The position numbers and the translations under genes were made by a program. A stretch of DNA of 64,000 nt, from NCBI RefSeq assembly GCF_037975245.1, contig NC_092568.1, positions 34,876,501-34,940,500 on the forward strand, read 5' to 3'. The notes under the pieces are model-generated. The model made no database searches, was not told the DNA's origin, and worked only from the letters and a program-made list of their open reading frames with translations. The DNA comes from Apostichopus japonicus (lineage: Eukaryota > Echinodermata > Holothuroidea > Aspidochirotida > Stichopodidae). Numbering within the stretch: the stretch's first letter is position 1; each line of letters begins with the position of its first letter. Positions 35,891 to 36,631 of this stretch are shown piece after piece.

Positions 35891-36631
35891 ATGTCTAACA
35901 TTAGCCGCCCTGTTGTAAATTTATTGTTTGTAGCTGACTCTAGAGCCTATTCATTTGATCGTTATACTACGCCATCTAGCTTCCAGCATCGTATTGAATT
36001 TGTTATTAAGCGTGGAGCCACTGTAGGAGAATTACTCGCCCTCACACAACAGCGTATTCAACGATTTAACCCTAGCGACTGGTTGATAGTACGTCTTGCA
36101 GCTGGTATCAACGACTTGTTAGCATTCACAGGCACTTCCAGGCAAAGTCGAGTTATTACTTGTTCATCTGTCTCAGCTGATCAACTTATTGCTAGGCTCA
36201 TTCATTTTCGTGACACACTTAGACAGACTCACCCTAATTGTATAGTTTCTTTTGTCACCATCCCTACGGCCTCGTTCGAGAAATTTCAAAGTCACAAGAA
36301 TTTAGCCACGCCAACTCTTTCCACTGAGCAACTACACCAACTTCAACGAGACTTAGACAGCAAGCTAGACGTTATTAACGCCTCGATCCACGATATCAAT
36401 CAACAGCATCAGTCAGGGATCCCTACGCGTACAGTAAATTGGCATTCTTTCATTCGACGTCCCACTACACGTCGCAATCGTACTGGTCGGATTACGAGAG
36501 CGATTGTACGCAATACCTTTACCAAGCTCTACGACGGTCTACATGCAGTGTCTTCGCTAAAACAACGGTGGCATCTAGAGATTTGTAGGGCATTTTCAGC
36601 AGACGTATGTAATTTGCTGTCCCATCTGTAG
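35891..36631 (+). CDS. SGNH/GDSL hydrolase-like protein encoded upstream of gag
   Basis: The 246-residue ORF starts at the first in-frame ATG (35891). The frame is open for 62 more codons upstream but without an ATG. All SGNH catalytic blocks can be placed: block I LLFVADSR with Ser17, block II RGAT with Gly42, block III AGIND with Gly72 and Asn74, and block V YDGLH with Asp215 and His218. The order and spacing (about 200 residues from Ser to His) fit a small SGNH esterase. The C-terminal third is basic (RRPTTRRNRTGR). The family hydrolyses esters of lipids or acylated sugars. Esterase-like SGNH domains are known in ORF1 of CR1-type LINEs, but I know of no standard Ty3/gypsy element with one. 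Its place before gag, with a 100-nt gap, raises the question of how both are expressed. The fold assignment is from motifs only. Confidence 0.72.
   Translation: MSNISRPVVNLLFVADSRAYSFDRYTTPSSFQHRIEFVIKRGATVGELLALTQQRIQRFNPSDWLIVRLAAGINDLLAFTGTSRQSRVITCSSVSADQLIARLIHFRDTLRQTHPNCIVSFVTIPTASFEKFQSHKNLATPTLSTEQLHQLQRDLDSKLDVINASIHDINQQHQSGIPTRTVNWHSFIRRPTTRRNRTGRITRAIVRNTFTKLYDGLHAVSSLKQRWHLEICRAFSADVCNLLSHL

Follow-up and report, generated by a model that had tools for sequence, protein, structure and literature searches.

The element and its additional gene

We analysed a 64,000-nucleotide stretch of the Apostichopus japonicus genome (contig NC_092568.1, positions 34,876,501 to 34,940,500 of the forward strand; hereafter the window), in which a Ty3/gypsy retrotransposon spans positions 34729-41697. 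In addition to gag and an open pol, which are both present, the element carries between its primer site and gag a further open reading frame (ORF), here called ORF0, which is a real, maintained gene and whose product is near certain to have the fold and residues of an SGNH hydrolase. The features of the element, including its long terminal repeats (LTRs), are as follows.

34725-34728, +: left copy of the target site duplication GGGT (sequence, self-comparison)
34729-35572, +: 5' LTR, 844 bp, with no difference from the 3' LTR (self-comparison)
35521-35526, +: splice-donor-like GTATGT (AAG/GTATGT) within the LTR (donor scoring)
35574-35591, +: primer binding site TGGTGACCCCGACGTGAT, of the tRNA-Trp type of the CsRn1 clade (sequence; PMC2582038)
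35891-36631, +: ORF0, predicted SGNH hydrolase fold, 246 residues, 0 internal methionines (sequence, predicted structure)
ORF0 codons, +: Ser17 at 35939-35941, Gly42 at 36014-36016, Asn74 at 36110-36112, Asp215 at 36533-36535, His218 at 36542-36544
36440-36529, +: conserved basic beta-hairpin of ORF0, residues 184-213 (alignment, predicted structure)
36632-36731, +: spacer of 100 nt from the ORF0 stop to the gag start
36732-37601, +: gag, 289 residues, with DUF7041 and the CHCC motif CX2HX9CX3C; its ATG has A at -3 and G at +4
37538-40774, +: pol, with reverse transcriptase (RT), RNase H, integrase, and GPYQV; the retroviral protease match is weak
40840-40853, +: polypurine tract preceding the 3' LTR (sequence)
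40854-41697, +: 3' LTR, 844 bp (self-comparison)
41698-41701, +: right copy of the target site duplication GGGT (sequence)

The repeat identity covers 846 bp, and the LTRs come to 844 bp once the 4-bp GGGT duplication is read; 4-bp duplications also surround three other copies of the element (L009, L010, and L014). The pol frame overlaps gag in a different frame and is open for 1078 codons from a GTG. Members of the CsRn1 clade use a tRNA-Trp primer site, TGGTGA(G/C)CCCG(T/A) (PMC2582038; this and the other papers cited are represented here by excerpts of their text). Among 13 LTR-paired copies in this genome, the window and 8 others have the primer site TGGTGACCCCGACG, and L019, L021, L022, and L025 have TGGTGAT. 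The window gag matches DUF7041 (Pfam, E 2.5e-32) and its CHCC motif reads CYFHNSFGDNARKCRPPC, while the GPY/F motif in the integrase C-terminus is GPYQV. A gag fragment recorded for Apostichopus japonicus matches 53% of the window gag at 100% identity. The motif CX2HX9CX3C is found in three of the four families described below (A, some copies only of B, and D), and a pattern search gave no match in the gag of family C. Judged by primer site, CHCC, and GPY/F motifs, the element is of CsRn1 type, with trees covering the elements of its own genome, and an earlier reading made from the sequence only was right to describe a CsRn1-like element with intact pol and identical LTRs.

ORF0 as a predicted SGNH hydrolase

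The SGNH blocks stand in order in ORF0, namely VADSR (with Ser17), RGAT (Gly42), AGIND (Asn74), and YDGLH (Asp215 and His218). The AlphaFold model has an SGNH hydrolase fold with a predicted local distance difference test score (pLDDT) of 96.9, and the closest PDB structures are named GDSL lipases, esterases, and PAF-AH (platelet-activating factor acetylhydrolase). A profile of ORF0 matched a profile of relatives, of which two out of three lie above the PF13472 cut-off, at 99% and E 5e-18. Searched singly, ORF0 members gave no reliable SGNH match in Pfam and NCBIfam; 3 of 13 family members matched PF00657 and 2 of 13 matched PF13472, with best E values of 0.0048 and 0.029, respectively. A sequence search of the PDB returned nothing for the window protein (P0001), and the profile gave 18 matches at chance level (best E 0.19). 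A PIN_2 identity for P0001 (E 0.0043) was rejected because the match is below the PIN_2 cut-off and disagrees with the fold.

Homologues of ORF0 were searched for among 5.8 billion proteins, which yielded 9 by single-sequence search and 61 by profile search at E 0.01 or better. We aligned 54 sequences (alignment A4), consisting of the window ORF0, 50 of the 61 profile homologues, and the ORF0s of L014, L019, and L026; the alignment omits the 11 weakest homologues, P0172-P0182, among which many are fragmentary or distant. With gaps left out, 47/48 sequences retain Ser17, 49/49 Gly42, 53/53 Asn74, 52/54 Asp215, and 52/53 His218.

The basic C-terminal third that had been described earlier is confined to residues 184-213, which hold 9 K/R and 0 D/E in the window protein and form a hairpin in the predicted model; residues 214-246 are charge-neutral (3 K/R, 3 D/E). 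In profile alignment, most of the basic stretch is absent from PF13472-bearing relatives. Its charge (8-10 K/R and 0-1 D/E in 12 alignment rows) would suit an SGNH-fold adaptor that is not an enzyme and whose hairpin binds element RNA or acidic lipid, comparable to non-catalytic Oskar, and inactive SGNH proteins, including Oskar, are known (PMC3905857). However, Ser, Asn, Asp, and His rank among the most conserved positions, which a pure binder need not retain, and we consider such an adaptor unlikely. Catalysis by ORF0 is probable.

ORF0 had no match in the viral and prokaryote contigs that were scanned. Three homologues (P0142, P0162, and P0166) are filed under a Sedimenticola sp. metagenome-assembled genome and resemble animal retrotransposon genes, and a scan of prokaryote genomes with P0142 gave no match. 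These sequences probably represent host DNA that was binned with a bacterium, and they hint that the hosts are not limited to echinoderms. There is also a hint of ORF0-gag linkage in other species, as two possible pairs each come from the same source, P0146/P0115 (longest contig 12,783) and P0158/P0123 (9,321), the gag side being drawn from the best 120 of 1134 gag matches; a third pair of equal size (1,286) is drawn from two separate sources and can probably be put down to chance.

Copies, families, and selection

The genome of the animal itself (671.6 Mb in 35 contigs) contains 76 stretches that match ORF0. Eighteen are near full length, and 15 of these have no stop (the window, L009, L010, L014-L023, L025, and L026). 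In all 15 uninterrupted copies, gag follows on the same strand 29-100 nt past the ORF0 stop, and pol comes after it. A pair of LTRs, 98.3-100% identical, is present in 13 of the 15, and the 3' end is absent from L016 and L017. Gag or pol is broken in several copies, for example in L010 (pol) and L017 (gag). The copies form four families; family A consists of the window, L009, and L010, and identity to the window ORF0 is 43-44% in family B, 46% in family C, and 38-39% in family D.

ORF0 is under purifying selection in all four families. Pooled ratios of nonsynonymous to synonymous differences (pN/pS) are 0.32, 0.27, 0.13, and 0.15 in families A-D, as compared to 0-0.32 for gag (A, B, and D) and 0.21 for pol (A and B), the pairs being non-independent and the counts small. 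Among variable ORF0 codons, 28 changes are synonymous and 21 nonsynonymous. The proposal that ORF0 has been kept open finds support in the uninterrupted copies, in selection, and in the catalytic residues kept in A4. The sequence-only reading had named three outcomes that would count against it (no SGNH match, Ser/Asn/His not conserved, and no other copy with the ORF), and none of them occurred.

Two pairs of copies, L021/L022 (C19, about 49 kb apart) and L016/L017 (C17, about 58 kb apart), resemble local duplications rather than separate insertions, given the matching flanks of the former and the shared truncation of the latter. A different dispersed repeat, seen at L028 (C8:15377500-15386200) and L047 (C16:8079500-8084500), contains a dead, frame-broken piece of ORF0 covering residues 1-177. 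The two examined loci are 88.5% identical over about 3.5 kb, and fragments of the same shape occur at more than 12 further places in the genome.

ORF0 might also be seen as a host passenger gene that was captured once and is decaying. There are broken copies (L011, L012, L013, L024, L027, and L038), an 81-codon remnant in L029, and the dead fragments in another repeat, all of which would be expected of such a gene. On the other hand, ORF0 is whole in three further families, where its identity to the window ORF0 is 38-46% and selection on it resembles that seen in gag and pol, and the catalytic residues are kept across 54 sequences, which makes a decaying passenger very improbable.

Relatives that lack ORF0

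There are 57 gag matches in the genome, and we examined 10 beyond the ORF0 copies. In eight of the 10, no ORF0 lies between the primer site and gag; of the other two, L029 holds the 81-codon remnant and L038 a broken ORF0. The distance from primer site to gag is 70-394 nt in the seven ORF0-less elements with an intact gag start. In a tree of RT (20 rows: 13 with ORF0, 6 without, and 1 truncated), the ORF0-less elements fall on one side of a branch with support of 70/68, and L036 forms a long branch. This grouping was not recovered in a gag tree of 24 rows (15 with ORF0, 8 without, and 1 truncated). Usable rows were left out of both trees, namely L016 and L017 for RT and L016 and L027 for gag, and L030 has no usable RT stretch. 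The RT tree appears weakly compatible with a single gain of ORF0.

How gag is reached

The frame relation between ORF0 and gag varies among copies, and the two are therefore not one fused gene. By analogy with rice tungro bacilliform virus (RTBV) and the badnaviruses, whose accessory ORFs are cleared of AUG so that scanning ribosomes arrive at the gag-pol ORF (PMC5902531), gag is likely reached by leaky scanning through ORF0. Over the four families, ORF0 has 1 internal in-frame Met in 969 codons, compared to 53 in the 5225 codons of gag and pol together (P 0.001), and 33 of 51 ORF0 proteins (window included) have none, compared to 2 of 120 gag proteins among the matches listed; since the homologues are related, these counts are non-independent. 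Out-of-frame ATGs are also scarce, with 18 observed in four ORF0s and 28.2 expected (z -3.1) when synonymous codons are shuffled with the protein kept (P 0.04, 0.07, 0.12, and 0.24 by family), while the same shuffling shows no deficit in gag and pol. In dinucleotide shuffles covering all frames from ORF0 to gag, ATGs are low in families A (P 0.003) and C (P 0.017). Position -3 is C, G, C, and C at the ORF0 ATG of families A-D, and A in all four at the gag ATG.

A donor-like site near the LTR end suggests another route, in which splicing would remove ORF0 from the RNA that serves to make gag, and the Met shortage would reflect a constraint on the protein. When the final 120 nt of the LTR are scored, the strongest donor-like site falls 30-59 nt short of the LTR end in 9/9 CsRn1-type elements, which represent one family each and include both carriers of ORF0 and elements lacking it (the window, L014, L019, L026, L029, L030, L033, L035, and L036). 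However, the site is present in the ORF0-less elements as well, where it mostly scores higher, and the one in L014 does not stand out from shuffled sequence (fraction 0.125). In none of the nine elements does an acceptor between LTR and gag score above shuffled sequence (lowest fraction 0.11), and out-of-frame ATGs, which are neutral to the protein, are below expectation too. Splicing around ORF0 was rejected as the main route on account of the site in ORF0-less elements and the missing acceptor signal, and the whole explanation seems to us quite improbable. The donor-like site itself might serve to suppress early polyadenylation, or might be the start of a leader intron.

Ribosomes could also reach gag by reinitiation past the ORF0 stop, which lies 29-100 nt upstream. 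The spacers are indeed short in 15/15 copies, but ribosomes usually reinitiate poorly once they have translated an ORF of 240 codons, and reinitiation would leave the loss of ATGs from ORF0 unexplained. We regard this route as doubtful.

A proposed role for ORF0

With moderate confidence, we propose that ORF0 functions as an accessory gene in a CsRn1-type sublineage, and that it encodes an SGNH enzyme, allows gag to be reached by leaky scanning, and has a role in the particle. Its product would be a one-domain SGNH hydrolase in which all catalytic residues are present and a basic hairpin, specific to the family, immediately precedes the His/Asp block. On the full-length RNA, ORF0 would be translated first, and, as in RTBV and badnaviruses, part of the ribosomes would pass its ATG and initiate at the more favourable one of gag; scan-through would be possible because the context of the ORF0 ATG is mostly weak and hardly any in-frame ATG follows within ORF0. 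The enzyme may strip acyl or acetyl groups off membrane lipids or surface molecules, and the basic hairpin may bring it to the particle, to acidic membranes, or to RNA. In this way it could aid the particle assembly or cell-to-cell movement of an element in which the space after pol is too small for an env gene.

Several observations weigh against this proposal. The window ORF0 protein has no SGNH match in Pfam. Out-of-frame ATGs are reduced but not absent, as 6 remain in family C and 7 in family D, and A alone passes 0.05, and in dinucleotide shuffles families B and D are not low (0.15-0.23). The ORF0 start of family B has G at -3, internal ORF0 ATG contexts are not significantly weaker (a purine at -3 in 4/19, compared to 65/183 in gag plus pol, P 0.16), and the leaders contain 0-2 upstream ATGs. 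The cellular role of ORF0 is a guess. RNA binding by the SGNH fold itself finds no support in the esterase of a zebrafish LINE (long interspersed nuclear element), which failed to bind oligo(A) RNA (PMC3905857).

Sequence around the element

An ORF at 41648-42121 begins in the 3' LTR and enters an OPA3 domain (Pfam PF07047, E 4e-29), and the element sits close upstream of an OPA3 exon, probably in the intron. At 50226-50856 of the window, there are two overlapping ORFs of about 200 residues each, built from a short repeat unit (YCQGPSYSILPG-like).

Comparison with known systems

The Vesta LTR elements of bdelloid rotifers carry a GDSL esterase/lipase gene, ORF3, after pol (PMC5408684; also PMC6431247), which has been suggested perhaps to ease membrane passage (PMC5408684). 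Like ORF0, Vesta ORF3 is an SGNH/GDSL gene with intact catalytic residues within an LTR element, and it is described as having no transmembrane or coiled-coil parts, which we count as a likeness (PMC5408684). As far as descriptions can be compared, however, Vesta ORF3 follows pol in rotifer-specific, dUTPase-bearing lineages, whereas ORF0 precedes gag in a CsRn1-type element with a DUF7041/CHCC gag; in the window element, pol ends at 40774 and the polypurine tract lies at about 40840. Moreover, the variation of Vesta ORF3 shows no significant departure from neutrality (PMC5408684), unlike that of ORF0.

SGNH esterases are also found in the ORF1 protein (ORF1p) of CR1, L2, and RTEX LINEs and in some Penelope-like elements (PMC3905857, PMC5408684), and the zebrafish LINE esterase is active on p-nitrophenyl (pNP) acetate and binds acidic phospholipid but not oligo(A) RNA (PMC3905857). 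ORF0 resembles these esterases in fold, catalytic residues, and position upstream of the polymerase gene. LINEs, in contrast, are non-LTR elements without gag, in which the esterase is part of a multidomain protein, while ORF0 is a stand-alone, one-domain protein beside a normal gag; the window element has both the LTRs and the integrase that CR1 and L2 lack.

With CsRn1, PwRn1, and AgCRs of the CsRn1 clade, the window element shares the tRNA-Trp primer site, the CHCC gag, and GPY/F, and with some members of the clade the overlapping frames of gag and pol (PMC2582038). The excerpts of that paper mention a third, env-like ORF in Boudicca and Saci-3, and no ORF before gag for the clade. More generally, LTR elements can have additional ORFs upstream or downstream of gag-pol (PMC8220671). 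The sORF1 and sORF2 of the Drosophila MDG1 group are likewise pre-gag accessory ORFs with low nonsynonymous rates in env-less elements, and are carried on unspliced full-length RNA; they differ from ORF0 in being short (about 110 and 70 residues) and in having no enzyme fold, sORF2 being membrane fusogen-like (PMC11952523). The accessory ORFs of RTBV and badnaviruses precede gag-pol, have been cleared of internal AUG, and start in a suboptimal context (PMC5902531); ORF0 also precedes gag, is almost free of in-frame ATGs, and starts in a context with C at -3 in three of the four families and G in one. These viruses are plant pararetroviruses, however, and in ORF0 the out-of-frame ATGs are reduced rather than absent.

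Among the matches listed in open-licence PMC full text, we found no report of an SGNH/GDSL ORF before gag. The suggestion of an undescribed lineage is not supported in the form in which it was made, as SGNH/GDSL genes were already known in LTR elements through Vesta ORF3 (PMC5408684); neither the pre-gag place nor such a gene in the CsRn1 lineage was found in the literature searched. An SGNH ORF in an LTR element is a known kind of gene, and its place before gag, its lineage, and its expression signature appear to be new within that literature.

These results add CsRn1-type Ty3/gypsy elements to the LINEs, Penelope-like elements, and rotifer LTR elements that carry SGNH hydrolases, and the excerpts of the papers cited give no proven role for any of these in the life of its element (PMC3905857, PMC5408684). 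A bolder extension, which we hold only tentatively and think fairly improbable, is that a seemingly widespread animal LTR lineage makes an SGNH hydrolase ahead of Gag from an ORF cleared of start codons, with long-range leaky scanning to Gag-Pol on a single RNA, as in plant pararetroviruses. The hydrolase would then take the place of an envelope, acting on membranes or on sugars of the cell surface when particles leave the cell or pass from one cell to another. ORF0 is a small stand-alone domain with several near-identical recent copies in a chromosome-scale animal genome, and ORF0-less relatives are available for comparison. The copies and these relatives make two questions testable, namely the task of a retroelement hydrolase and the expression of a long pre-gag ORF in animals, and the shortage of ATGs provides a sequence signature for finding further such genes.
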